Source: Sphingosinicella sp. LHD-64
GTDB taxonomy: Bacteria > Pseudomonadota > Alphaproteobacteria > Sphingomonadales > Sphingomonadaceae
NCBI RefSeq assembly: GCF_031157375.1
Contig: NZ_JAVIFV010000003.1
Span: 1,004,001 to 1,068,000, forward strand
Reading direction: 5' to 3'
Length of the DNA: 64,000 nt
Positions within the stretch are counted from its first letter, which is position 1. The number at the start of each line of letters is the position of its first letter. The notes beneath the pieces were generated by a model. It was not told the origin of the DNA and ran no database searches. It saw only the letters and a program-made list of their open reading frames with translations. A program made the translations under genes and the position numbers. Positions 13,384 through 52,512 of this stretch are shown here, piece by piece.

Positions 13384-13515
13384 CTAACGGATCGGCAGGA
13401 AGAGACCCAGGATCGCAAGCGCAGCCCCAATTGCCGAGACGATCAGGGCCACCCGCGAAATCTGTGCCGCCCGCCGCGCCTCGGCGATCGCTTCTTCCAG
13501 CTCCTCTTCGGAAAT
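13384..13515 (-). CDS. possible small tail-anchored protein with non-standard start
   Basis: The minus frame ending in TAG at 13386-13384 encodes a convincing small protein: an acidic helix (SEEELEEAIAEARRAAQISR), then a hydrophobic segment (VALIVSAIGAALAILGLFL) and PIR at the end. The frame has no ATG, GTG or TTG upstream of the acidic helix before it is closed by a stop. The best candidate start is ATT at 13515 with GGAG six bases upstream, giving 43 residues; a CTG at 13530 is the alternative. It begins 11 bases after the HicB-like gene. It could equally be the tail of a gene broken by a frameshift. Confidence 0.35.
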   Translation of the reverse strand: MSEEELEEAIAEARRAAQISRVALIVSAIGAALAILGLFLPIR

Positions 13516-13526
13516 GACCCGCTCCG

Positions 13527-13769
13527 TCAGGCCGGAATCGGGCGCGCCGTCAGCCCGGGGCTCACCATCGTGCCGCTTTTCGCCGCCGGCGCCGGCGGCT
13601 CCACCCCGTCGGTCGCATAGCCGGCCAGCGCCTCGTCGAGCGCCCGCCTCGCCTCGTGCAGCGCCTCGTCATGATCGGATCCGAGCGCGGTAACGCCCGG
13701 CAGGTCCGGGAAGGTGGCGATCACCAGCCCGTCGTAACGCGTTGCAAGCTGAACGGCATAGCTGACCAT
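13527..13769 (-). CDS. HicB-like antitoxin domain protein, short and without a HicA partner
   Basis: An 80-residue protein. Residues 1-60 are a HicB-type partial RNase-H fold: YAVQLATRYDGLVIATFPDLPG, then SDHDEALHEARRALDEAL and the DG turn. Full HicB antitoxins continue into a DNA-binding domain, but here the protein ends after a short Pro-rich tail (SPGLTARPIPA). Start ATG 13769 has AAGGAG about 7 bases upstream. No HicA toxin gene is seen on either side. It may be a truncated antitoxin or a HicB-fold protein with another role. Confidence 0.7.
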   Translation of the reverse strand: MVSYAVQLATRYDGLVIATFPDLPGVTALGSDHDEALHEARRALDEALAGYATDGVEPPAPAAKSGTMVSPGLTARPIPA

Positions 13770-13888
13770 CGTCAGTCTCCTTGAACCGTCCGATCGCCCC
13801 CAAAACGCGACTCGCGGCGAGCGGCCCCTAGCGAAACAAATCCTTCATGTTGATGGAGGCGGAGTCAAATCGCCCCGCCTCCGCATCC

Positions 13889-16321
13889 TCAGAATTGCGT
13901 CCGGACGGTCACGCCCCACGTCCGGGGGTCGCCCGGCTGGCCGACGACGAGGCCGGTATTGCCGGACTGGGTGGCGAGCACCTCGAAATAGTCCTCGTCG
14001 AAGGCGTTGCGGACCCAGGCCATCACCTCCCAGCCGTCATCCACCCGGAAACCGAGCCGGAAATTGGCGAGGCCATAGCCTGCGATGTCGGTATAGGCCG
14101 AGCGCGACGGGTTGGACGAGAAGCGCGAGCGGTAGCTGGCGTCGAACCCGAGGTAGATTTCGCCGTCGAGGCCGAACAGCCGCTGCGGCAGCGCATATTC
14201 GCCGCCGAACGCGCCCGCCCAGCGCGACACGCCCGGCAGCCATTGCCCGGAAATGTCGCAATTGGGCGGGCTGACCCCGCCGGGCGTCCCCGGCGCGCTC
14301 GGCACCGGCCCGCTCGCGCCGCCGGACAGCTCGGGCGGGCAGGGGGCGTCGGTGAAGCGCACGTAGCTGGCGTCGGTGAAGGCGCCGTTGAAGTAGAGGC
14401 TGAGGCCGCGGACCGGCCGAGCCGAGACCTCGAGCTCGAAGCCGCGCGTGCGCACCTTGTCCGCATTGGCGAGATAGCCGCGCAGCACGCCCAGCTGGCC
14501 GTTGGTGACGGTCGCCTGGTAATCCTCGATCTCGGTCCAGAAGCCGGTGAAGTTCACCGTCAGCCGCCGGTCGAAGAACTGGGTCTTCAGCCCCGCCTCG
14601 AAATGGTTGACCGTCTCCGGATCGACCGTCGCGACGGCGAGGATCGGATTGTTGTTCGCATCGAGCGGGAGGCCGGAGAGGTTGATGCCGCCCGATTTGA
14701 ACGCCCGCGCATAGGTCGCATAGGCGAGGATGTCGTCGGTGAGGTCGTACGACACCGTGAAGTCCCACGAGAAGTTCCAGTCGGAGAAGCTCGGCTCGTA
14801 GCTCTGCGGCGCGAGCACCCCGCGCTGGTCGCTGGTGAGCGGCGTGCCGGTGCCATTGGTCACCACCGCCACATAGGATCCGTCCTTCTTGTCGTAGTTG
14901 ATCCGGATGCCCGGCTGGAGCCGCAGTCGGTCGGTCACCCGCCAGCCGATCTGGGCGAAGGCGGCGAGGCTGGTCGTCCTCAGCCAGATGTCGTTCTCCG
15001 ACCTCAGGCCGTCGAGCACCGCGGGGTTGCAGGCATTGGCGGTCGGCGGGTTGCAGCCGCTGGAGCCCGGCGGAACGTTGCCGGGGTTCAAAAGCCAGCG
15101 GCTCGCCGCCGGCCCCTGTTCCTGGGCGCCGGTCGTGTGCTGGCGCTGGTAGTAAGCGAAGGCGCCTGCCACATAGTCGAGCCGGCCGCTGGACCCGGCA
15201 TAGCGCAGCTCCTGCGAATACTGGTTCTGCCGGGAGGGGTTGGCCGACACGGTGGTGATCGGCAGGCCGGTGAAGTCGCGGTCGTTCGACGGTCCCCAGT
15301 TCCAGAACCGCCACGCCGAGACCGAGGTCAGCGTGCCCGGCCCGATGTTCCATTCGGCCCTGAGCGCGACGCCGCCGATCTCCTGGAAGGCCGAGAGCGG
15401 CGTGTCGAGGTCGGTCAGGCGGTCGAACGGATCGGTGCTCGGTGGCGCATAGCCGAAGGCGGCGGCGAGCCCGGCGAACTGCCGGTTCAGCGGCCGCTGC
15501 GTCGCGCCCTCGCGCACGTAGATCTGGACGCAGCATTCCGGGTCCTGGCGGTTGTAATCGGCGGACAGGGTCAGGTTGAGGTTGTCGGTCGCCCGCCACA
15601 GCAGCTGGCCGCGCAGGCCGAGATTGTCCTGCTCGTTGACCCAGCGATCGGTGGTGACGTTGTAGACCGTGCCGCGCCGGTGCGAGCGCGCGGCGGCGAC
15701 GCGGAAGGCGAGGACGTCGTCGACGATCGGCCCGGAAAAGGACGCGCCCGCGTTCACATAATCGAGATTGCCGATCGTCACCTGCGCCCGCCCTTCGAAA
15801 TCGAAGCTCGGCGCCCGGGTGGTGACGTTGACCGCGCCGGCGGTCGTGTTCTTGCCGTAGAGCGTGCCCTGCGGCCCGCGCAGCACCTCGATCCGCTCGA
15901 CGTCGAGGAAATCGAAGGTCGTGACCGCGATACGGCTGTAATAGACCTGGTCGATATAGACGCCGACGCCCTGCTCGATGCCGTCATTGGTGAGGCCGAA
16001 CGGTGCGCCCAAACCGCGGATATTGGCCGCCGAGTTGCGCGGATTGGTCGAGTAGAATTGCAGGCTCGGCTGAATCTGGGTCAGCCGCAGCACGTTGACG
16101 CTGCCGGTCGCATCGAGCTGCTCGCTGCCGATCACCGAAACCGCGATCGGCACGTCCTGCAGGTTCTCGTTCCGGCGCCGCGCAGTGATGACGATGTCGT
16201 CGTTCGGTCCGGCCGCGACCGGCGTGGCGGGCGGCGGCTCCTCGTTCTGGGCGAAGGCGGGGACGGCGCCCAGCGCGAGCGCCGAGGCGGTGGACGACAG
16301 AAGAACGGTGCGTGCGATCAT
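13889..16321 (-). CDS. TonB-dependent outer-membrane receptor
   Basis: An 810-residue receptor with all expected parts. Residues 1-25 are a signal peptide ending PAFAQ. A TonB-box-like DIVITARRRNENLQDVPIAV follows at residues 42-61. The plug domain has NIRGLG, VYIDQVYYSR and VERIEVLRGPQGTLYGKNTTAGAVNV. A 22-strand barrel then ends in WGVTVRTQF with C-terminal Phe. This Sphingomonas-rich subgroup often takes up complex organic compounds, but no substrate can be named. AGGAG lies upstream of ATG 16321. It is separated by 62 bases from the upstream transporter gene on the same strand. Confidence 0.93.
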   Translation of the reverse strand: MIARTVLLSSTASALALGAVPAFAQNEEPPPATPVAAGPNDDIVITARRRNENLQDVPIAVSVIGSEQLDATGSVNVLRLTQIQPSLQFYSTNPRNSAANIRGLGAPFGLTNDGIEQGVGVYIDQVYYSRIAVTTFDFLDVERIEVLRGPQGTLYGKNTTAGAVNVTTRAPSFDFEGRAQVTIGNLDYVNAGASFSGPIVDDVLAFRVAAARSHRRGTVYNVTTDRWVNEQDNLGLRGQLLWRATDNLNLTLSADYNRQDPECCVQIYVREGATQRPLNRQFAGLAAAFGYAPPSTDPFDRLTDLDTPLSAFQEIGGVALRAEWNIGPGTLTSVSAWRFWNWGPSNDRDFTGLPITTVSANPSRQNQYSQELRYAGSSGRLDYVAGAFAYYQRQHTTGAQEQGPAASRWLLNPGNVPPGSSGCNPPTANACNPAVLDGLRSENDIWLRTTSLAAFAQIGWRVTDRLRLQPGIRINYDKKDGSYVAVVTNGTGTPLTSDQRGVLAPQSYEPSFSDWNFSWDFTVSYDLTDDILAYATYARAFKSGGINLSGLPLDANNNPILAVATVDPETVNHFEAGLKTQFFDRRLTVNFTGFWTEIEDYQATVTNGQLGVLRGYLANADKVRTRGFELEVSARPVRGLSLYFNGAFTDASYVRFTDAPCPPELSGGASGPVPSAPGTPGGVSPPNCDISGQWLPGVSRWAGAFGGEYALPQRLFGLDGEIYLGFDASYRSRFSSNPSRSAYTDIAGYGLANFRLGFRVDDGWEVMAWVRNAFDEDYFEVLATQSGNTGLVVGQPGDPRTWGVTVRTQF

Positions 16322-16383
16322 GATCTTGCTCCTGGATCATGCTCGCCTCCGGTCGTCCGGTCGGCAGCGGGATGTGAACGGTT

Positions 16384-17154
16384 TCAGGCCGAAAGGGCGC
16401 GATAGACTCCGTAGAGGCTGGTCAGGGTCAGCAGCACGCCGACCAGCACCAGCAATATCTTCGGCCGCGCCTTCTTGGCGAAGATCGCGCCCAGCGGCGC
16501 GGCGGCGATACCGCCGATCAGGAGGCCGACCGTCGCGGTGGTGAAGGCGGCCCAGCCCAGCTGGGTGATGAAAGTGGCCGAGATCGTGGCGGTGACGAAG
16601 AACTCGGCGCTGTTGACGGTACCGATCGTCCGGCGCGGCTCGGTGCCCTGGACGAGCAGGTTGCCGGTCACCACCGGTCCCCAGCCGCCGCCGCCCGCCG
16701 CGTCGAGGAAGCCGCCGGCGAGGCCCAGCGGCTCGACCACCTTGGGCGGCTTGTGCTGCGGCGGATAGGGGCGCAGGCCCCGCCAGAGCAGGAAGAGGCC
16801 GATGAGGGCGAGATAGGCGAGCACGGCCGGCCGCGCGGCGTCCGCATGGATGTTGCTCAGCACATAGGCGCCAAGCGCCCCGCCGATCGTGCCCGGGACG
16901 GCGATCCGCGCGAACAGCCGCCAGTCGACATTCTTGTGGATCGCATGACTGATTCCGGACGCGCCGGTGGTGAAGGTCTCGACCGTGTGCACGCCCGCCG
17001 AGGCCGCAGCCGGCGGCACGCCGAGCCCGAGCAGGATCGAAGTCGAGATGACGCCGAAGGCCATGCCGAGCGCGCCGTCGATCAGCTGGGCGGCAAAGCC
17101 GGCGGCGATGAAGGCGAGCAGGCTGGCGACATCGATCGCCGCGAGATCGGGCAT
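16384..17154 (-). CDS. TSUP family transporter (TauE/SafE type)
   Basis: A 256-residue inner-membrane protein with about seven to eight helices in two repeats. The family's GALGMAFGVISTS and SAGVHTVETFTTGASG lie in the first half, and GGFLDAAGGGGWGPVVTGNLL with TVNSAEFFVT in the second. TSUP proteins carry small anions, often sulfite, sulfonates or organic acids. The gene lies 43 bases after a YezD-family gene, a pairing consistent with sulfur metabolism (inference). The start is the ATG at 17154. Confidence 0.88.
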   Translation of the reverse strand: MPDLAAIDVASLLAFIAAGFAAQLIDGALGMAFGVISTSILLGLGVPPAAASAGVHTVETFTTGASGISHAIHKNVDWRLFARIAVPGTIGGALGAYVLSNIHADAARPAVLAYLALIGLFLLWRGLRPYPPQHKPPKVVEPLGLAGGFLDAAGGGGWGPVVTGNLLVQGTEPRRTIGTVNSAEFFVTATISATFITQLGWAAFTTATVGLLIGGIAAAPLGAIFAKKARPKILLVLVGVLLTLTSLYGVYRALSA

Positions 17155-17197
17155 GCGAGAACCCTTCGGTGGATTGCGGGGCGAAAGCCCGGTGGCG

Positions 17198-17365
17198 CTA
17201 TTTCGCCAGTCGTCGTTTCTCGGTCACGTCGAGCTGGACGACGCGGCCCTCATGGATGGTGACCGCGATCGAGCCGAAGCGGATGCGCTGCAGACAGTCG
17301 CGAATCGCCGCCAAAGCGTCCTCCGGGGCTGCGGCCGAAGGGAGGGCGCGGGTGAGCTGGGACAT
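17198..17365 (-). CDS. YezD family small protein (DUF2292)
   Basis: A 55-residue protein. The core ALAAIRDCLQRIRFGSIAVTIHEG followed by RVVQLDVTEKRRL matches the YezD family, often encoded with sulfur-assimilation genes in other bacteria. I chose ATG 17365, with AGGAG seven bases upstream. The ATG two codons earlier lies directly against the same AGGAG and is unlikely. Longer upstream readings have no ribosome site. A possible -35 TTGTCA is seen upstream, but no clear -10. It probably shares a transcript with the TSUP gene. Confidence 0.78.
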   Translation of the reverse strand: MSQLTRALPSAAAPEDALAAIRDCLQRIRFGSIAVTIHEGRVVQLDVTEKRRLAK

Positions 17366-17576
17366 CGGCATTCTCCTGGTCTGGAGGGTAGCGACTCGCG
17401 GTACGCGCAGGCATAGAAGATACTCTACCTGTGCAGTTGACAATGCTCGGGCGACCAGCCGATGTCAATTTGAGCCGGGCCGCGACTGCAAGTTTGGAGG
17501 AATCTTGCCCTCGGCGTCGTCTGGAGAGTGATTAACCGCGGATAACAGCGTCATTCAGGACGGTTTCAATCGCGGT

Positions 17577-17757
17577 GGCTCATTGAAGGACGCGACGGGC
17601 TCAGCGCGGTTCGCGTCCGTTCAGTTCCCATGAATGAGGTGGGATTGCCCCCGGCGATCCCAGCCATGCCTGGGAGGCATGGCGACCTCAATCATTCCCT
17701 CGGGTGGCGTATCGAGGGGAGGCCGGCATTCCGCAACGGGTGCCGGCCTCACTGTTT
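17577..17757 (+). ncRNA. candidate structured small RNA, unknown family
   Basis: A roughly 180-base stretch without a protein gene folds into consecutive strong helices. Hairpin 1 has arms 17583-17595 and 17611-17624, about 13 pairs with one bulge and a GGACGCGA/TCGCGTCC core. A closing stem (17632-17640 with 17685-17697) encloses two hairpins: 17641-17649 with 17653-17661 (9 pairs, loop CCC) and 17663-17670 with 17676-17683 (8 perfect pairs, loop TGGGA). Next is 17698-17702 with 17713-17717. The last is a perfect 10-pair terminator-like stem followed by ACTGTTTT. A weak promoter, ATAACA (17542) and TTCAAT (17565) 17 bases apart, fits a start near 17577. Both flanking genes are on the other strand, so it would be a stand-alone RNA. 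I do not recognise it as 6S, tmRNA, SRP RNA or a known riboswitch. Confidence 0.55.
17719..17757 (+). terminator. intrinsic terminator of the candidate RNA
   Basis: Perfect 10-base-pair stem (GAGGCCGGCA at 17719-17728 with TGCCGGCCTC at 17741-17750), 12-base loop, then ACTGTTTT on the + strand. It lies 13 bases from the stop of the convergent xylC gene and may also slow minus-strand transcripts, but no T-run follows in that direction. Confidence 0.65.
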
Positions 17758-43002: not shown

Positions 43003-43035
43003 CGACGCTCCCCGGAGTTGGTCGATCCATCGGAA

Positions 43036-43050
43036 GCAAGCTGCGTGCCA
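43036..43050 (-). promoter_or_regulatory. sigma-54 promoter of the flbD-like/fli operon
   Basis: Minus strand TGGCACGCAGCTTGC (43050-43036), an exact match to TGGCAC-N5-TTGC. It lies 34 bases before the flbD-like ATG. Confidence 0.85.
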
Positions 43051-43258: not shown

Positions 43259-44077
43259 ATGGCTGTTATCAACACCAATACGGCTGCGCTGCGTGCGCAG
43301 AATGGTAGCCGGGTCGCCAACCAGGCCCTCCAGGTCGCCATGGAGCGTCTGTCGACCGGCAAGCGCATCAACACCTCCAAGGACGACGCCGCCGGCCTCG
43401 CCATCGCGAGCTCGATGACGTCGCAGATCCGCGGCCTGAGCCAGGCGATCCGCAATGCCAATGACGGCATTTCGCTCGCCCAGACCGCGGAAGGCGCGCT
43501 CGGCGAAGTCACCAACATGCTGCAGCGCATCCGCGAGCTCGCGGTGCAGAGCGCCAGCGGCAGCTACTCCGCCGACGACCGCGCCAACCTCGACTCCGAA
43601 GTCCAGGCGCTGAAGACCCAGATCACCGACATCCTGTCCGACACGACGTTCAACGGCGTCACCCTGTTCGGTTCGGGCGCCGCCGACGTGGCCATCCAGG
43701 TCGGCTCCAATGCCGGCGAGACCGTCGATGTGGAACTGTCGCAGATCACCCTCACCCTCGGTGACGTGACCTCGGTCGCCAACGCCAATACGCTGCTCGG
43801 CGCGTCCACCGCGTCGGGTTCGGTCGCTGCGGCGCTGAAGACGGTGAGCGACACGCGCGCCGACCTCGGTGCGGCGCAGAGCCGGCTCGACTCGGTTGTC
43901 AACAACCTGACCAGCAACGTCACCAACTTGAGCGACGCGCGTTCGCGGATCGAGGACGCCGATTTCTCGGCCGAGACGACCAACCTGGCGAAGGCCCAGA
44001 TCCTGAACCAGGCGTCCACGGCGATGCTGGCCCAGGCCAATCAGAGCCAGCAGGGCGTGCTGAGCCTGCTCCGCTAA
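43259..44077 (+). CDS. fliC: flagellin
   Basis: A 272-residue filament subunit consisting almost only of the conserved D0/D1 domains. The N-terminal half has [41 protein letters not shown] and [15 protein letters not shown]. The C-terminal half has [21 protein letters not shown] and [16 protein letters not shown]. The variable surface domain is reduced to about 40 residues, as in alphaproteobacterial flagellins. AAAGGA upstream of ATG 43259. It has its own FliA promoter and terminator. Confidence 0.96.
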
Positions 44078-44104
44078 GCGTACAAGCAAGAAGCGGAAAA
44101 TCGG

Positions 44105-44141
44105 GAGCCCGGTGCGGATGTCCGCGCCGGGCTCTTCTTTT
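44105..44141 (+). terminator. strong intrinsic terminator after flagellin, probably bidirectional
   Basis: Arms 44105-44118 and 44121-44134 pair over about 13 bases with one G-T wobble (GAGCCCGGTGCGGA with TCCGCGCCGGGCTC), followed by TTCTTTT. On the minus strand the stem is followed by CCCGATTTTCC, so it may also end the methyltransferase operon that stops at 44151. Confidence 0.88.
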
Positions 44142-44150
44142 GCATGGAGA

Positions 44151-44981
44151 TCAGGCGGCGCGCCGGCCGGCGGCCACGCGGTCCTGCCATTCGAGGACGG
44201 TGAGATAATTGGCGAGCCGGTTCTCCTCGAGCCGGCGCAGCAGCTTGTTCTCGTGCCACGGGATGACGAGCCCGGCCATGTCCGGCCCCCAGGGCGCATC
44301 GGTGTCGAACAGGATGCCGAGGCCGAACACGGCGGGCACCTCGGCAAAGGCGATGCCGCGTCCTTCGGCCCGCAGCTCCTCGATGAAATCCTCGATCGCG
44401 GTCATCACGCCGTTGCGCGGACCGCCCTCATGCAGCGCGCAGGCGAACTGACCCATGCCGCGAAACCCCCGGTTCGGGATCGGCGCGCTGATGCCCGGGA
44501 AGACACCCCCCTCGAACGTATAGGCGTGCCGGAACTCCGCCGGGATCCGGTCCGGCGCATAATAGAGATCGCGACGCGCGCACGGCCAAGCGATGTCGTG
44601 AAGGAACGCGAGCAGCGGCTTGCCATCGCGCCGACAGGCCGCATCGACGCCTTTCAGCTCATGGTAGACGGTGTACCAATTGTGGTCGCCGTCGATGATC
44701 CACGCATCGACGTTCACGACCTCATCAAACGCCTCAAGACTCGGCTTGGCGACGTGGCGGAAATGATCGCGCGTCGCGCCCCAATCGAGAAATTCCTGCT
44801 TGGGCGACGGATCGATGCTGGTCAGCCGGCCGCCCTGCGCCTCGGCATGGTCCGCCAGTAGAAACGACATGCCGCCGAACTCGGCGCCGATCTCGACGAT
44901 CTCGCGCGCTTCGGCGAGCGCGAGTGCCTTGAGGATGATGTCGGAAAATTCGGACATCGAATGAATCAGGAGATTGGTCAT
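44151..44981 (-). CDS. class I SAM-dependent methyltransferase in the flagellar island
   Basis: A 276-residue protein. The SAM-binding motif I is IVEIGAEFGGMSFLLADHA, motif II LTSIDPSP and motif IV DAWIIDGDHNWYTVYHEL, matching the Methyltransf_24-like group. The C-terminal 150 residues include AFLHDIAWPCARRDLYYAPD and resemble sugar or glycan methylases loosely. It shares one base with the stop of the upstream HAD gene (TGATG) and is the last gene of the transglycosylase-flhA-flhG-fliA operon. Modification of flagellin or its glycan is an inference from position next to fliC. Confidence 0.75.
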   Translation of the reverse strand: MTNLLIHSMSEFSDIILKALALAEAREIVEIGAEFGGMSFLLADHAEAQGGRLTSIDPSPKQEFLDWGATRDHFRHVAKPSLEAFDEVVNVDAWIIDGDHNWYTVYHELKGVDAACRRDGKPLLAFLHDIAWPCARRDLYYAPDRIPAEFRHAYTFEGGVFPGISAPIPNRGFRGMGQFACALHEGGPRNGVMTAIEDFIEELRAEGRGIAFAEVPAVFGLGILFDTDAPWGPDMAGLVIPWHENKLLRRLEENRLANYLTVLEWQDRVAAGRRAA

Positions 44982-47320
44982 CAGGCAGCCTTTCTCAGGG
45001 CCTGCCGGTCCCCAAAGGCCAGCGGGCGGAAGGTGAATGCGATGAGGTGCGGCTCGGCTCCTAGGCCGGGCACCGGCGGCACCAAGAGCAAGGCGGCGGG
45101 GGTGCAGCGCAGCAGGCCGGGCGCCTCCTCGATCAGACCCTCGCGGATCACGGTCGCGGGGATCGGCGCGGCCGCCTTGGTCGGCAAATCGGGCGAGAAG
45201 CCCTCCACGGCATAGAAGACGACTTCGTCGACCTCGGCCCAATCGCAGAGCGCGCCCAGCTGGATCCCGGCGGCGAAGCGGCCGGCACCGACCGGGATCG
45301 TCGCCAGATAATAGCCGTCGTGCGTCGGATAGGCCTCGATCTCGATCATGGTCTGGCTGCGATCATCGGCGAGGATGACCGGCAGCTTCAGCGCAGGCCC
45401 GCGGAAATCGGCGCCGCGCAGATCGAGCGAGAAGCGGTTGGCGCTGAACAGCGACAGGTTGAGCGGCAGGCCGTGCGGCTGCAGCTCGCCGGGCAGGAAG
45501 ACCCGCTTGGCTGTGTTGAGATAGAAGAAGCCGCGCCGGCGCAGGCCCAGGGTGGCGGCCTCCGGATCGAGCAGGTCGATGAGGTCGCCCGTGCCGAGAT
45601 TGACGTCGTGCTCGAACGCCTGGAGCAGCGCGACCTCCTCGGGGATCGGCATGAACAGCAGGCGGGCGAGGCTGGCTGCGGCCATTGCCTGCCGTGAAGA
45701 CGCGTCGTCCGATGCGGGGGCGCGATGGATGCCGTGCGCGGCATTGCGGGCGAAGGCGACGCAGCCCGCCTGCACCCGGTCGCGGATGTCGTTCTGCGCG
45801 CCCTTGGCGCCGGCCGCCGTGCGGATCGGCTCGCCATTGGGCGAATAGTTCTCGACCGAGCCCAGGGCGATCGTCGACAGCTGCTCGATGAGCGCGATCG
45901 GGCCGGACAAAGCGTGAAGTGCGTTGTAGTCGAAGTGGCGCGGGTCGAGGAAACCCTTCTTGTCGTATCCGGTCTCGGCCTCCTCGCGCAGCAGCAGGTA
46001 GCGGCCGACCAGCCTGAGGTCGAACCGCTCGGAGAGCGCATCCTCGAGATAGTCCTGGACGGTGCCGTTATAGCCCAGATCGACGAGCATCACGGTGTCG
46101 CCGCGTGCGATCCCCAGGCGCTCGAGATGGGCGAACAGCTTCTTGCCGAAGGCGTGCGACCGCTCGACGATCTTGCGGACGTTTTGGGGCTGCAGCGCGG
46201 CGCGCTCGAACCCGGCCTGGCCGCCGCGGCCGAGCTTCTCGCTTTCCTCGCGGCTGAGGCCGAGCTGGCGGCCGAGCAGCGAGACGCGCCCGTGCTGGAT
46301 CTCGCCGGTCAGGAAGCCGGCAATCGCATCCGCATTGGCGAAGCCCGCGCGGCGCGCGGTGAAACGGCTGATCTCGGCGGCGGCCGTGGCCTTGCCGGTC
46401 ACCGCTTCGAACACGCGCTGCGGCAGATGGCCGTCGCGGAGCAGGAAAACGATCTTCGCGTCACCGAGCGCCGCGGCCTCCGCCTCGACCCACGTGATGA
46501 AGGCATGCATCAGCGGGCCGAGCACGTCGTGGCCGAGCGTCCAGGCTGGATCCTTCTCGGCGCGCAGCGACAGAGGCGCGCGGTGCGGCTGGAAGACCGG
46601 ACGGGTGGTGCGCGCGGCGGGATCGAGGATCGCCGCCGCGGCCGCTTCGAGCCGCAGACGTTGCTCGGCCGCCGCGTCGAACTGGCGGAAATGGACGGCG
46701 TGGATGCCGAGCGCATCCGGCGCGTCATGGTCGGCCTTCTTGTTGTCGCCCACATGCAGGATCGTCTGCGGCGGCACGCCGAGCTCGGCGAGCACCGGCT
46801 CGAACAGACCGCCGGCCTTGGTGACGCCGTAGGTCGCGGAGCAGAAGATGCGATCGATGAGCCCGGTGACGTCCGGCCCCGCCGCCGCTTCGATAAGGGC
46901 GCGCAGCTGGGCTTCGGCGAGATAGGTGTCGCTGACGATGATGACCTCGAGGCCCTTGGCCTTCGCGGCCTTCATCAGCGCGACGGTCGGCGCGAAGGCG
47001 TAGCAGTGGCGCGCCTCGGCGGCGAGCTCGGCGGCAACCGCCTCGGCGACGCGCGCCTCGTCCGCGCGCGGGCGGAGCGCCCGGTGGATCTGCTCGATCG
47101 TGACTTCGGTCCTGCCGTCGATGAAGCGGCGCTGCTTGCGGGCCCGGCGCTCGGCGCGGGTGCGCTGCCAGATGCCGCCGCAATCGGTGAAGACATCGAC
47201 CGGCGCCTGGCAGTTGCGCCAGAGCAGGGTGTCGAAGCAGTCGAGCGAGAGGATGCGCACCCCTTGGGGTGCAGTGTCCAGCAGGTCGGCAATTCCGGTG
47301 GCGGTGACGGTCATCTTCAT
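44981..47320 (-). CDS. large HAD-superfamily protein (COG5610-like)
   Basis: A 779-residue cytoplasmic protein. The N-terminal 240 residues form a HAD domain: motif I SLDCFDTLLWR (Asp27), motif II IIVSDTYL and motif IV LHVGDNKKADHDAPDALG. The middle contains FLLRDGHLPQRVFEAV and MLVDLGYNGTVQDYLED. These pairings are typical of the COG5610 proteins found in surface-polysaccharide loci. The C-terminal 180 residues look beta-rich and could bind carbohydrate. It begins 12 bases after fliA with GAGGAG upstream and is coupled to the methyltransferase. Its role is unknown; flagellin glycan processing is a guess from context. Confidence 0.75.
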   Translation of the reverse strand: MKMTVTATGIADLLDTAPQGVRILSLDCFDTLLWRNCQAPVDVFTDCGGIWQRTRAERRARKQRRFIDGRTEVTIEQIHRALRPRADEARVAEAVAAELAAEARHCYAFAPTVALMKAAKAKGLEVIIVSDTYLAEAQLRALIEAAAGPDVTGLIDRIFCSATYGVTKAGGLFEPVLAELGVPPQTILHVGDNKKADHDAPDALGIHAVHFRQFDAAAEQRLRLEAAAAAILDPAARTTRPVFQPHRAPLSLRAEKDPAWTLGHDVLGPLMHAFITWVEAEAAALGDAKIVFLLRDGHLPQRVFEAVTGKATAAAEISRFTARRAGFANADAIAGFLTGEIQHGRVSLLGRQLGLSREESEKLGRGGQAGFERAALQPQNVRKIVERSHAFGKKLFAHLERLGIARGDTVMLVDLGYNGTVQDYLEDALSERFDLRLVGRYLLLREEAETGYDKKGFLDPRHFDYNALHALSGPIALIEQLSTIALGSVENYSPNGEPIRTAAGAKGAQNDIRDRVQAGCVAFARNAAHGIHRAPASDDASSRQAMAAASLARLLFMPIPEEVALLQAFEHDVNLGTGDLIDLLDPEAATLGLRRRGFFYLNTAKRVFLPGELQPHGLPLNLSLFSANRFSLDLRGADFRGPALKLPVILADDRSQTMIEIEAYPTHDGYYLATIPVGAGRFAAGIQLGALCDWAEVDEVVFYAVEGFSPDLPTKAAAPIPATVIREGLIEEAPGLLRCTPAALLLVPPVPGLGAEPHLIAFTFRPLAFGDRQALRKAA

Positions 47321-47332
47321 CGCGGCGGCTCC

Positions 47333-48061
47333 TCAGGCCCAGTCGGCGAGCGACGTGCGCAGGCGGTCCAGGGCGGCTTTCTTGATCTGGCAGATGCGGG
47401 CGGCGCCGACGCCGAGCGTCTGGCCGATCTCCTCGAGGTTCATCTCCTCGACGAAGTAGAGCTGGAGCACCAGCCCGTCGCGCTCAGGGAGAGTACGGAT
47501 CGCCTCGGCGATCGCGTCTTTCAGCCGGTCGCGGTCGAGCGCCTCGTCGGCGCGCTCCTCGACATCGGCGAACCATATCGAATGGTCGGAATAGACCTCG
47601 TCGATCGATTCGTGGTGCACGGCCTGGCTGTCGTCGACCATCTCGCGATAGTCGGCGGCCCCCATGCCGAGCTCTTCGGCCATTTCGGCGTCGAGCGCGG
47701 CGCGGCCGAGCCGGGCCTCCAGTCGCTGACGGGCAGCGGCCAGCTCGCGCCGGCGCACCATGGCGGAGCGGCAGATCGAGGCGTGGCGACGCAGATGATC
47801 GATCATCGCGCCGCGGATGCGCAGCGTCGCATAGGTCGCAAAAGCGTGGCCACGGTCCTCGAAGCCGTTTGCGGCCTCGACGAGGGCGACCATGCCGATC
47901 TGGACGAGATCCTCGACGTCGATCGCGGACGCGACGCGGCCGTGCACGTGCCAGGCGATCTTGCGCACCAGCTGCATGTGGCTGCGCACCAGCGCTTCCG
48001 GCGTCGGCCGCGCCTGACGCTGATAGGTCGCCGCGCCCTGCTGGGGGTCAATAAGTGCCAT
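47333..48061 (-). CDS. fliA: flagellar sigma factor FliA (sigma-28)
   Basis: A 242-residue sigma-70-family factor. Region 2 reads HVHGRVASAIDVEDLVQIGMVALVEAANGF and ATYATLRIRGAMIDHLR. Region 3 follows, and region 4 has LPERDGLVLQLYFVEEMNLEEIGQTLGVGAARICQIKK; these are given in part. It directs late flagellar genes; four matching promoters lie in this window. GGGGGAGG precedes ATG 48061, and the gene overlaps flhG by 14 bases. Cotranscription with flhA places fliA under the sigma-54 promoter at 51814. FlgM in this window is its expected anti-sigma factor. Confidence 0.93.
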   Translation of the reverse strand: MALIDPQQGAATYQRQARPTPEALVRSHMQLVRKIAWHVHGRVASAIDVEDLVQIGMVALVEAANGFEDRGHAFATYATLRIRGAMIDHLRRHASICRSAMVRRRELAAARQRLEARLGRAALDAEMAEELGMGAADYREMVDDSQAVHHESIDEVYSDHSIWFADVEERADEALDRDRLKDAIAEAIRTLPERDGLVLQLYFVEEMNLEEIGQTLGVGAARICQIKKAALDRLRTSLADWA

Positions 48062-48869
48062 TGGCCTCCCCCATCAGGCGCAGTTCGGCCGGTGCCGGCA
48101 CCGGCTGGATGTCGGGCCGCGCGAGACGGCGGGCGATCCGCCCGAACGCCTTGGACGCGCCCGAGCCCGGGAAGGCCTCGAGGCAGCAGCGCTTCCTCAG
48201 CACCGCCTCGCGCACATAGGGATCGTCGGGAATCGCGCCGGCATAATCGAGATTGAGATCGAGAAAGCGGGTGACGACGCCGCGGAAGCGGTCGAACAGC
48301 TCGCGGCCCGCAATGTCGTGGCGGACCATGTTGGCGACGACCTGGAAACGCTGCAGGCCTTGGGCGACGGCCAGCGCCTTCACCAGCGCATAGGCGTCGA
48401 TGAACGAGGTCGGCTCGGGCGTGACCACGATCATCGGCATGTCGGCTTCGGCGATCAGCGCGAGCGCCGAGGCCTCGATGCCGCTGCCGGTGTCGATCAC
48501 GACATGGTCGAAATCGTCGAGCCAGGGTCCGAGCGCCTCGATCAGGCGGGTGCGTTCGCTGTGAGTCAGGGTCGATCCGCTGCCGGTGCCGCTGTGACCG
48601 GGCACGAAGCTGATCCCGCCGGGGCCGGGCCGGATCAGGTCGTCCATCGTGCAGCGGCCGGCGAGCAGGTCGCCGATCGTGAACGTCGCGTCGATTCCCA
48701 TCAGGATCGCCGCATTGGCCAGGCCCATGTCGCAATCGATCAGCATCACGCGCCCGCCCGCCCTGGCGAGGGCGACCGCCAGATTGACGCTCACATTGGT
48801 CTTGCCGACGCCGCCCTTGCCGCTCGCAACGGCAATGATTTGGGCGCGGCCGGAACGCTGAAAACTCAC
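48048..48869 (-). CDS. flhG: MinD-like ATPase FlhG (FleN/YlxH)
   Basis: A 273-residue ParA/MinD-type ATPase that limits flagellar number. The deviant Walker A ASGKGGVGKTNVSVN starts at about residue 15, with IDCDMGLANAAI and VIDTGSGI following. The N-terminus is only about 10 residues and lacks the DQAxxLR helix that activates FlhF in other bacteria, and flhF itself is not next to it. The C-terminus may carry the membrane-targeting helix. It overlaps flhA by four bases. Confidence 0.88.
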   Translation of the reverse strand: MSFQRSGRAQIIAVASGKGGVGKTNVSVNLAVALARAGGRVMLIDCDMGLANAAILMGIDATFTIGDLLAGRCTMDDLIRPGPGGISFVPGHSGTGSGSTLTHSERTRLIEALGPWLDDFDHVVIDTGSGIEASALALIAEADMPMIVVTPEPTSFIDAYALVKALAVAQGLQRFQVVANMVRHDIAGRELFDRFRGVVTRFLDLNLDYAGAIPDDPYVREAVLRKRCCLEAFPGSGASKAFGRIARRLARPDIQPVPAPAELRLMGEANGTY

Positions 48870-50974
48870 GCGACCTCCGATTCAAGCATGGGATGATTGT
48901 TGTTGGCTTCACCGCCGACGACGGCGACGACCTCGACCGCCTTGCCGTCGGGGATTTCGAGAAAGGACAGGACGGGGGCGTCGGGCACATGCGGCGCAAG
49001 CAGGCGGGCCAGCGCCCGGCGTGCGATCGGCGAGGTGACGACGGCGAAACGGCGGCCCTGCTGAAGCAGCGGCCCGGCGACGCCGCCGATCGCCTGGACG
49101 ATCTTCTGGCCCAGACCCGGCTCGATCGGATGGACCGCGTCGCGGCCGGTGCGCACCGCCTGGGCAAGCAGGCCTTCGAGGCTGGCGTCGAGGGTGACGA
49201 CGGGGAGCGGCAGCTTCACCGGCACGATGGTCTGAACGATCAGGGCGCCGATCCGCTGGCGGACCGCCTCGACGAGCTGGACCGGATCGGTCTCTTCGCG
49301 CGCTGCGTCGGCCATCGCCTCGGCGATGCGGCGGAAGTCCTTGAGCGGCACGCCTTCGATCAGCAGCGCGCGGCACAGCGCGGCGAGGCTGACCAGCGGC
49401 AGCGGCTGCGGCGTCAGGTTGGCGGCGAGCTGCGGCGCCGTCTCCTTGAGCGCGTCGATCAGCTTCTGGGCCTCGTCCATACCAAACAGGTCGGCGGCGG
49501 CGGACTGGATGACCTGATTGAGATGCGTGGCGATCACGGTCGCCGGATCGACGACGGTGTAGCCCGCGACCACCGCCTCGGCGCGCTGCGCCGGCGGAAT
49601 CCAGACCGCGTCGAGACCGAAGGTCGGATCCTTGACCTGGCGGCCATCGATCCGGTCGAGCAGGTCGCCGCTGTCGAGCGCGAGCAGCTCGTCCGGCCAG
49701 ATCTCGTCCTCGGCCACAACGACGCCGGCGACGGTGATGCGATAGGTGTTGGGGGCGAGCGCCAGATCGTCGCGCACGCGGACCATCGGGATGACGAAGC
49801 CGAGCTCGCGCGACAGCTGGCGGCGGATGCCGGTGATCCGCGCCATCAGCGGCGCGCCCTTGCGTTCGTCGACCAGGCCGACCAGCGCGAAACCGAGTTC
49901 GAGGCCGAGGGCGGCATCGTCGCTGACCTCGTCCCAGCCGATCGTGGTCGGCGCCGGAGCTGGCGGCGCCTCGACCGGGGCATTGGCCTTGGCCTGCGCG
50001 GCCTTGTGCAGCTTCCACGCGATCGCGGCGGCGCCGGCAGCGGCGACGAGAATGATGAAGTGCGGCATGCCGGGCAGGAGGCCGAGGATCAGCAGGATCG
50101 CGGCGACCGGCACCCACGCCTTGGCCGAACCGAACTGGTGGGTGATCTGGCCCGATAGGTCGAGCGGCGAGCTGACCCGGGTGACGATCGAGGCGGCGGC
50201 GATCGAGAGCAGCAGTGCCGGCACCTGCGCGACCAGCGCGTCGCCGATCGCGAGCACGATATAGGTCGAGGCCGCCTCGCTCATCGACAGGCCGTGGCTC
50301 AGCATGCCGAGGATCAGGCCGCCGACGATGTTGACGACGAGGATCAGCACGCCGGCGATGGCGTCCCCCTTCACGAACTTGGAGGCGCCGTCCATCGAAC
50401 CGTAGAAATCGGCCTCGGTCGCGACTTCCTGGCGACGGAGCTTGGCTTCCTCGGGGGTCAGCAGGCCCGCGTTCAGATCGGCGTCGATCGCCATCTGCTT
50501 GCCGGGCATGGCATCGAGGGTGAAGCGCGCCGAGACTTCGGAGACGCGGCCGGCGCCCTTGGTGATGACCACCAGGTTGATGATCATCAGGATCATGAAG
50601 ACGAACAGGCCGACGGCATAGTCGCCGCCGATCAGGAAATTGCCGAACGCCTCGATCACATAGCCGGCGGCATGCGAGCCCTCATGGCCGTCGACCAGCA
50701 CGACGCGGGTCGAGGCGACATTGAGCGCGAGCCGGAACAGGGTCGCGAACAGAAGCACCGTCGGGAAGGAGGAGAAATCGAGCGGCCGGGCGACGTTCAG
50801 CGCCACCATCAGCACCGCGAGGCTGATCATGATGTTGGTGACGAAGCCGATGTCCAGCATCATCGCCGGCATCGGCACGATCATCAGCATGACGAGCAGC
50901 AGCGTCGCGAAGGGCAGGACCGCGCCCCGGCCCGCGCCGAGCCATACCTTGCGGTTCACGGTAGCGCGGCTCAT
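48866..50974 (-). CDS. flhA: flagellar export gate protein FlhA
   Basis: A 702-residue export apparatus protein. Eight membrane helices fill the first 330 residues, including the FHIPEP-type region (DIGFVTNIMISLAVLMVALN, FPTVLLFATLFRLALNVASTRVVL, KGAGRVSEVSARFTLDAMPGKQMAIDADLNAG, quoted in part). The cytoplasmic domain for chaperone docking makes up the rest. ATG 50974 lies 2 bases before the transglycosylase stop's end and has GGGAG nine bases upstream. It is normally followed by flhF, but here flhG follows directly. Confidence 0.95.
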   Translation of the reverse strand: MSRATVNRKVWLGAGRGAVLPFATLLLVMLMIVPMPAMMLDIGFVTNIMISLAVLMVALNVARPLDFSSFPTVLLFATLFRLALNVASTRVVLVDGHEGSHAAGYVIEAFGNFLIGGDYAVGLFVFMILMIINLVVITKGAGRVSEVSARFTLDAMPGKQMAIDADLNAGLLTPEEAKLRRQEVATEADFYGSMDGASKFVKGDAIAGVLILVVNIVGGLILGMLSHGLSMSEAASTYIVLAIGDALVAQVPALLLSIAAASIVTRVSSPLDLSGQITHQFGSAKAWVPVAAILLILGLLPGMPHFIILVAAAGAAAIAWKLHKAAQAKANAPVEAPPAPAPTTIGWDEVSDDAALGLELGFALVGLVDERKGAPLMARITGIRRQLSRELGFVIPMVRVRDDLALAPNTYRITVAGVVVAEDEIWPDELLALDSGDLLDRIDGRQVKDPTFGLDAVWIPPAQRAEAVVAGYTVVDPATVIATHLNQVIQSAAADLFGMDEAQKLIDALKETAPQLAANLTPQPLPLVSLAALCRALLIEGVPLKDFRRIAEAMADAAREETDPVQLVEAVRQRIGALIVQTIVPVKLPLPVVTLDASLEGLLAQAVRTGRDAVHPIEPGLGQKIVQAIGGVAGPLLQQGRRFAVVTSPIARRALARLLAPHVPDAPVLSFLEIPDGKAVEVVAVVGGEANNNHPMLESEVA

Positions 50975-50975
50975 C

Positions 50976-51770
50976 TCAGGCGTCTCCCAGCTGCGCGAGC
51001 ATCAGATAGGCGAGGCGCGCATATTCGGGCGACGGGCGGGCGAGGTTGATTTCCTCGGGCGCATCGACCGCCTCCTCGCTGCCGAGCGCCATGCGCAGCG
51101 CGAGCATGTCGTTGGTCGGCGCGCTCGGCGGCGCAACCGGCGTGTCGCCGAAGCGGCGGGCGAAATGGGTGCGGATCTCGGCGAAGCTCTTCGGCGAACC
51201 GTCGCGATCGTAGAAGATCGAACGGTTGGCGCGCGCCGCTGCCGGCAGCAGGCGGGCCGCGGCGCCGTCCGGGTTGGCATCATGGGCGCGCAGGAACTGT
51301 GCTGCGCCGCCGGCGCCTAGGAAATGGGCGAGGTAGAGATCGACCGGCTCGGCGCGGCGGCCGATCCGGCTTTCGAGATGGTCGCGATTGTCGGAGGCGA
51401 ATTCGGCCGCCATGGCCGAGGCGGCTTCGGGCTGGCGCCTGAGGTCAAGAATCGCACGGCGCATTCCCGGATCGGCGACATGATAGCGGCCGCCGGGGGT
51501 GCGGCGGATCGCGTTCGCGGCCCAGCCGAGGCCATGATCGGCGCCGTGCCGCTGGACGGTGCCGAGCCAGGTCTGGTCGATGAACTGGAAGAGGCCGGTC
51601 GCGCTCGAGGTGCGCGCGCGCGCATTGGGATCGAGGCCGCTTTCGACGCGGGCCTGATTCATCAGATAGCCGAAATCCATGCCGGTGCGGGCGGCGGCCT
51701 GCTGGATGGCGGCACCGATGCGGTCGCGGCCTTGAGGGCCCGATGCACCGGTGATCGTCGTCGGAATCAT
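50976..51770 (-). CDS. lytic transglycosylase-like protein, flagellar peptidoglycan remodelling
   Basis: A 264-residue protein with an SLT-type fold: LMNQARVESGLDPNARARTSSATGLFQFIDQTWL (partial) holds the catalytic Glu (VESG) and the ATGLFQF motif. LYLAHFLGAGGAAQFL follows, the second family block. There is no obvious signal peptide, so it may be exported by the flagellar system or another path. FlgJ in this window consists only of the rod-binding domain, and this enzyme is a good candidate for the missing muramidase role. It heads the flhA-flhG-fliA operon behind a sigma-54 promoter. Confidence 0.85.
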   Translation of the reverse strand: MIPTTITGASGPQGRDRIGAAIQQAAARTGMDFGYLMNQARVESGLDPNARARTSSATGLFQFIDQTWLGTVQRHGADHGLGWAANAIRRTPGGRYHVADPGMRRAILDLRRQPEAASAMAAEFASDNRDHLESRIGRRAEPVDLYLAHFLGAGGAAQFLRAHDANPDGAAARLLPAAARANRSIFYDRDGSPKSFAEIRTHFARRFGDTPVAPPSAPTNDMLALRMALGSEEAVDAPEEINLARPSPEYARLAYLMLAQLGDA

Positions 51771-51799
51771 GACGCCCCTTTCTCTTCAGGGACATCGAA

Positions 51800-51814
51800 G
51801 CAATTGCCGTGCCA
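51800..51814 (-). promoter_or_regulatory. sigma-54 promoter of the transglycosylase-flhA-fliA operon
   Basis: Minus strand TGGCACGGCAATTGC (51814-51800), an exact TGGCAC-N5-TTGC match, 30 bases before the gene start. Confidence 0.85.
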
Positions 51815-51928: not shown

Positions 51929-52240
51929 CTAACGCGCGTGTGGGCGGTAGGTGAGGCCCTGCGGACGGCCGGCGAGGGTCGCGAGCGTGTCGATCCGGCG
52001 GCGGACATGGTCCGTCAGAAAATTGACGCGGGCCTGCGCGGCCTGGGCGAGAACCGCAAGGCTGGAGATGCGGTCCTTGAGATCCGGCGCGAGGCCCACG
52101 CCCTGGAGCGCGCGCGCGCCGGCGACCGCGTCGGAAAGGTCAGTGGTCGCGGCTTCGATGCCGGCGAGATCACCGGAATCGAGCGCGATGATCAGTGCCT
52201 CATGCGCGACAGCAAGGCGGTCGAGAACCTGAAGGCTCAT
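51929..52240 (-). CDS. FlgN-like flagellar chaperone candidate
   Basis: A 103-residue all-helical protein without membrane segments: LQVLDRLAVAHEALIIALD, IEAATTDLSDAVAGARAL and LAVLAQAAQARVNFLTDHVRRR. Size, fold and position directly after flgM (TAATG overlap) fit FlgN, the export chaperone for FlgK and FlgL, although FlgN sequences are poorly conserved. The open frame upstream to 52543 runs through flgM and is not part of it. Start ATG 52240. Confidence 0.6.
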   Translation of the reverse strand: MSLQVLDRLAVAHEALIIALDSGDLAGIEAATTDLSDAVAGARALQGVGLAPDLKDRISSLAVLAQAAQARVNFLTDHVRRRIDTLATLAGRPQGLTYRPHAR

Positions 52241-52512
52241 TACCGGACCGGCAGATCGAGCGCGATCATCCGTTCGGCGATGCGATCCGCATCGACCGGA
52301 TAGCGGCCTTCGGCGATCGCGGCACGGATCGCGGACACCTTGGCGGAATCGACCGGGGCGCCGCCGCTCACCAGCTCGAACACGGCGCTTTCGACCGGGC
52401 CGTTCCGGCCGCGCGACGTGGCATGGCCGGTGGCCGCAGCCGCCTGGCTTTTCTCGGTGCCACGGGTCAGCTCGATGCGTCCCGGACCGGTTTTTCCCAC
52501 ACCGTCGATCAT
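52240..52512 (-). CDS. flgM: anti-sigma-28 factor FlgM
   Basis: A 90-residue protein with a disordered Gly/Ala/Thr-rich N-terminal half and a C-terminal FliA-binding region: DSAKVSAIRAAIAEGRYPVDADRIAERMIAL. It holds FliA inactive until exported through the finished hook. The ribosome site AGAGG precedes ATG 52512. A FliA-type promoter lies upstream, giving the usual feedback loop. Confidence 0.88.
   Translation of the reverse strand: MIDGVGKTGPGRIELTRGTEKSQAAAATGHATSRGRNGPVESAVFELVSGGAPVDSAKVSAIRAAIAEGRYPVDADRIAERMIALDLPVR

Follow-up and report, generated by a model that had tools for sequence, protein, structure and literature searches.

Organization of the flagellar locus

The window analysed here, a 64,000-nucleotide stretch of the genome of Sphingosinicella sp. 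LHD-64, contains a compact gene array that runs on the reverse strand and ends convergently with the flagellin gene fliC. The features of this locus are as follows.

43259–44077 (+): fliC, flagellin of 272 amino acids and proposed acceptor (PF00669, 145.6 bits; PF00700, 87.5 bits)
44103–44136 (+): hairpin terminator separating the convergent fliC and methyltransferase genes (15-pair stem, 11 G-C pairs)
44151–44981 (−): SAM-dependent O-methyltransferase (MT) of 276 amino acids, Methyltransf_24 (PF13578), terminal gene of the operon
44981–47320 (−): large HAD protein of 779 amino acids, a putative dual-domain ribofuranosyltransferase
47333–48061 (−): fliA, flagellar sigma factor, directly upstream of the large HAD gene (Pfam Sigma70 regions 2, 3 and 4)
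48048–48869 (−): flhG, MinD/ParA-type ATPase (assigned by Pfam and position)
48866–50974 (−): flhA (the PF00771 match of its own genome lies here)
50976–51770 (−): SLT lytic transglycosylase (PF01464), first gene of the operon
51799–51814 (−): sigma-54 promoter-like site TGGCACGGCAATTGCT ahead of the operon, an exact consensus match

The initial annotation had described a 779-residue HAD protein and a SAM methyltransferase joined by a TGATG overlap at the end of a flhA–fliA operon beside fliC, and the open reading frames lie as it stated, with an overlap of 1 bp at position 44981. The genes follow one another in the order SLT, flhA, flhG, fliA, HAD, MT at spacings of 1, −4, −14, 12 and −1 bp. 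It had also placed the pair under a sigma-54 promoter shared with flhA and fliA. The site itself is confirmed, as TGGCACN5TTGCW is matched exactly about 29 bp ahead of the SLT gene (one of four exact matches in the 64 kb) and a sigma-54 activator is encoded within the window; cotranscription of all six genes is suggested by their spacing. A further exact sigma-54 site lies at 43035–43050 (−), ahead of a FleQ-type activator gene, and the anti-sigma-28 factor FlgM is encoded at 52240–52512 (−), upstream of the operon.

Domain architecture of the large HAD protein

The large HAD protein, hereafter the transferase, divides into three parts.

Residues about 18–225: PRP domain (HAD phosphatase)
Residues about 240–575: gPRT domain (PRPP-dependent transferase)
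Residues about 590–779: extra C-terminal beta domain

In a Pfam scan, the protein matched PF00702 at 32.7 bits (cut-off 26.4) and neither PF01973 nor PF13844, and NCBIfam returned sub-threshold HAD names and nothing else. With the sequence as query, phmmer matched both the Haemophilus influenzae type b capsule polymerase Bcs3 and the Thermobacillus composti enzyme 7shg. A profile built from 11 relatives matched 7shg over both domains (E 1.6e-20) and Bcs3 (E 1.2e-19), and a gPRT-centred profile starting past the HAD domain still matched 7shg (E 2.3e-12). The AlphaFold2 model (pLDDT 76, pTM 0.69) superimposes on 7shg with Z 23.8 over 493 residues (residues 19–569; rmsd 12.9) and on Bcs3 with Z 23.5 over 545 residues (residues 20–623; rmsd 6.5), while HAD-only proteins score Z of about 13. 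The rmsd to 7shg indicates that the PRP and gPRT domains are differently placed in the model.

Residues of both domains are strictly conserved. Among 84 sphingomonad-type sequences, the HAD motif residues D27/D30/T31, S130/D131, K168, G191-D192-N193 and D197 are identical in all 84, as are R295, D296, S318, R319, D414, Q422, E479 and S488 of the gPRT domain. R295, D296, S318, R319 and D414 align with R679, D680, S707, R708 and E818 of the Bcs3 PRPP site (PMC10299916); D414 is an aspartate where Bcs3 has a glutamate, and 7shg also carries aspartate here. R323, the counterpart of Bcs3 R712, varies among relatives. The protein is thus most likely a dual-domain ribofuranosyltransferase that combines a HAD phosphatase (PRP) with a PRPP-dependent gPRT. 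The initial annotation had seen no glycosyltransferase in the window, a statement that no longer holds, as the large HAD protein itself carries such a domain.

The C-terminal beta domain was present in all seven Sphingomonadales proteins tested and was found in none of 13 distant loci. We consider these C-terminal 190 residues to be probably an acceptor-binding domain.

A gPRT protein from another alphaproteobacterial family (locus L185, 9027–11477, +) lies beside genes for a flagellin (13506–14327) and FliD (15604–17616). Its HAD motifs are seemingly ruined (D27S, D30G, D192A, N193E) and its gPRT residues R, D, E and S are kept; judged from these substitutions, it would leave the 5-phosphate in place.

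Association with flagellar genes in the genus and the order

The transferase gene or a remnant of it occurs in 11 of 25 other species of the genus. In eight of these it follows fliA, with fliC nearby where the contig or cluster includes it, so that nine genus members, the present one counted, have the gene or a remnant after fliA. Because congeners repeat this position, the HAD–MT pair is not a chance arrangement. Seven flagellated congeners lack the gene (G006, G008, G013, G017, G019, G020, G025); in these, fliA and fliC are neighbours oriented towards each other, and the interval separating them holds no recognised gene for flagella or glycans. In one species (L025:7731–11281), a second flagellar cluster includes a divergent flagellin of its own and, beside it, a divergently transcribed transferase paralogue.

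An order-wide sample of 297 Sphingomonadales genomes contained 26 with a full-length transferase gene. FlhA was present in all 26 carriers against 197 of the 297 genomes overall (66%; hypergeometric p 1.3e-5, genomes treated as independent). All 26 also have flagellin, which lies within 3 kb of the transferase gene in 14. The statistical link between the transferase and flagella is strong. The wider loci take several forms (X denoting the transferase), namely fliC-MT-X-MotB-MotA, FlaF|X-MT-MotA-CheY-CheA and FliS-FliD-X-MT. The Ser/Thr content of the flagellin variable region is 27% in carriers versus 20% (Mann-Whitney p 0.004), a post hoc comparison uncorrected for kinship.

Homologues lie in motility clusters by a narrow majority. 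A core motility gene was found within 7 kb in 41 of 80 genome-scan loci, the other 39 being outside recognised motility clusters; of 27 sampled loci, 15 belong to such clusters and 12 are orphans outside them. With the genes of the window as the only references, most homologues had appeared non-flagellar; this reading was dropped once MotA, CheA, FlaF and FliD were counted as references. Most of the non-motility loci stand alone amid housekeeping genes. In the 297-genome sample, the orphan loci are all in flagellated genomes and none is in a capsule cluster. Distant relatives of the transferase often occur in polysaccharide loci.

The methyltransferase and its replacement by a Kdo cassette

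MT matches Methyltransf_24 at 39.4 bits (cut-off 26.3) in the Pfam scan, with Methyltransf_3 as its other, sub-threshold match; the FliB family domain was not found. A PDB search with the single sequence gave nothing useful, and a profile gave a weak O-methyltransferase match (E 0.011). The MT model folds like the Mg-dependent O-methyltransferases, and its matches include MycF (Z 15.8) and SpnH (Z 14.6), both of which act on sugars. The invariant residues D97-G-D99-H100 and H128-D129 would suit a metal-dependent O-methyltransferase.

MT orthologues occur in 14 of the 297 genomes, 13 of which also carry the transferase (p 8e-15, genomes treated as independent), and the two genes are adjacent in 11. 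Genome G328 has MT without the transferase. In genome G022 (L028:9600–10900), the transferase lacks residues 129–687 and MT is split; since the neighbouring flhA is broken too, decay or poor assembly may account for this state.

The nearest relative (75% identity) and Sphingosinicella terrae carry a four-gene Kdo cassette at the position of MT; its genes encode an uncharacterised protein, KdsD, a fusion of a CMP-sugar synthetase with RraA, and KdsA. Other genera (G208, G260) also have this cassette alongside the transferase.

L023:11258–15616, L018:12126–16607, L174:11390–15807 and L161:11196–15826: Kdo cassette standing in for MT beside the transferase

The first gene of the cassette had no Pfam, NCBIfam or PDB match; it presumably resembles KpsC/KpsS and may encode a Kdo transferase. 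On the tree, MT loci and Kdo-cassette loci fall in sister pairs, and two close species pairs show the swap. In two congeners, fliA and fliC flank a solitary transferase gene, with neither MT nor the cassette. That MT and the Kdo cassette replace one another at a fixed slot, after a transferase that does not change, points to the transferase product as the substrate of both.

Beyond the family, a transferase of 30% identity (L155:7104–10837) adjoins a CMP-sugar synthetase-RraA fusion (50% identical), and the coupling of ribose and Kdo may therefore be old. In Sphingomonas deserti (L021:12110–14708), genes for a GtrA-like membrane protein and an acyltransferase-3/SGNH protein lie between MT and fliC, possibly serving a further decoration step.

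Proposed mechanism and alternative readings

We favour, as a fairly probable reading, that the transferase–MT pair constitutes a flagellin-modification module in which ribofuranose would be taken from PRPP and then methylated; family, fold, intact catalytic residues, operon position, co-occurrence and module swaps are observed, and the activity and the flagellin acceptor are deduced. The gPRT domain would move ribose-5-phosphate from PRPP, beta-linked, onto flagellin in the cytoplasm prior to export, with the C-terminal beta domain probably gripping the acceptor. The HAD domain would then strip the 5-phosphate, leaving ribofuranosyl-flagellin. MT would in turn O-methylate the ribofuranose, our presumed site of methylation, yielding O-methyl-ribofuranosyl-flagellin. 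Sister species lack MT or carry the Kdo cassette in its place, and the cassette would extend the ribose instead. The timing of the modification would be set by the flagellar hierarchy. That the gPRT domain places ribofuranose straight onto Ser/Thr of flagellin, with interchangeable cassettes then methylating it or adding Kdo, we put forward tentatively, as a plausible proposal.

The flagellum-linked role proposed by the initial annotation, which had left making, trimming or methylating a flagellin modification side by side, is upheld by synteny, co-occurrence and module swapping. Making is now favoured over trimming, because the protein appears to be a ribofuranosyltransferase that depends on PRPP and brings a phosphatase of its own.

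Against the flagellin module stand the loci outside recognised motility clusters, the MT of G328 that occurs with no transferase, and the fact that every characterised gPRT enzyme we found acts on glycans and not on proteins (PMC10299916, PMC11127046, PMC12096443). This last point would fit a transferase that does not start the glycan and extends a sugar already set on flagellin by another glycosyltransferase, an arrangement that we judge rather unlikely. In L185, a gene upstream of the flagellin-side relative encodes a TPR protein that weakly matches glycosyltransferase-9, and this speaks for such a primer; however, this FlmG-like protein matches the carrier genomes over its repeats only, and was rejected as a primer in carriers. 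Maf-type and GT41 enzymes were likewise rejected as primers, as PF01973 was absent from 13 congeners and PF13844 from 11 carriers, with a Caulobacter control giving a match for PF13844. The two congeners with the transferase alone between fliA and fliC also argue against glycan extension. A separate priming glycosyltransferase of another kind may be encoded elsewhere in the genome.

It is improbable that MT methylates flagellin itself, for instance at lysine as FliB does, with no relation to a sugar. Methylation of Salmonella flagellin is known, as cited in PMC7591256, but MT exceeds the cut-off for PF13578 and for no other family, its fold matches include sugar O-methyltransferases, and it is nearly confined to transferase carriers and swapped for the Kdo cassette. 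Slightly less probable still is a role of the pair on another surface glycan, exopolysaccharide or glycosphingolipid, that shares only the timing of flagellar expression. The numerous orphan loci and the polysaccharide loci of distant relatives would agree with such a role, but the orphan loci examined sit among housekeeping genes rather than in polysaccharide clusters, no full-length carrier without flagellar genes occurred among the 297 genomes, and the transferase repeatedly lies beside several kinds of flagellar cluster. That the large protein no longer makes glycan and serves as a HAD phosphatase or regulator of flagellar assembly is very improbable: it shares an operon with the regulators fliA and flhG, but the PRPP-site residues R295, D296, S318, R319, D414, E479 and S488 are identical in 84 of 84 sequences.

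Significance

The PRPP-dependent ribofuranosyltransferases found in the literature searched all build polysaccharides, either capsule or O-antigen. The same search yielded no work linking ribose or ribofuranosyltransferases to flagellin and nothing relevant on COG5610, both weak absences, as most subscription papers lay outside it. Were flagellin the acceptor, these enzymes would gain a protein substrate and flagellin a new modification, which one enzyme would make with no nucleotide sugar; direct attachment of ribose to flagellin, if true, would represent a novel modification of proteins. Plant-associated Sphingomonas divide swimming and immune recognition between two flagellins, and flagellin glycans are removed by plant glycosidases ahead of recognition (PMC13015449). 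The swap of MT and Kdo cassette at one slot constitutes a natural experiment on the role of flagellin decoration in sphingomonads.

Comparison with known systems

The transferase resembles the PRP-gPRT enzymes (7shg from Thermobacillus composti and the Klebsiella prototypes) in the order of HAD phosphatase and gPRT domains, the HAD motifs, the PRPP-site residues and the fold. Unlike these enzymes, which act on polysaccharides, it adjoins flagellin and has the extra C-terminal beta domain. Bcs3, with its CriT-CrpP domains, and Cj1432 of Campylobacter jejuni likewise combine a phosphatase followed by a PRPP-dependent ribose transferase (PMC10299916, PMC12096443), but the present protein is without their N-terminal ribitol-phosphate or glucuronic acid transferase domain and does not lie in a capsule locus. 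MT shares its predicted fold with MycF, SpnH and COMT (Z about 14.6–16), although it is only 10–13% identical to those chains. Caulobacter FlmG is an unrelated enzyme, with a TPR domain, a different glycosyltransferase domain and pseudaminic acid as its sugar (PMC7591256). In contrast to these differences, the proposed logic would be shared: by analogy with FlmG, a soluble cytoplasmic enzyme with a separate acceptor-binding domain would modify flagellin before its export.
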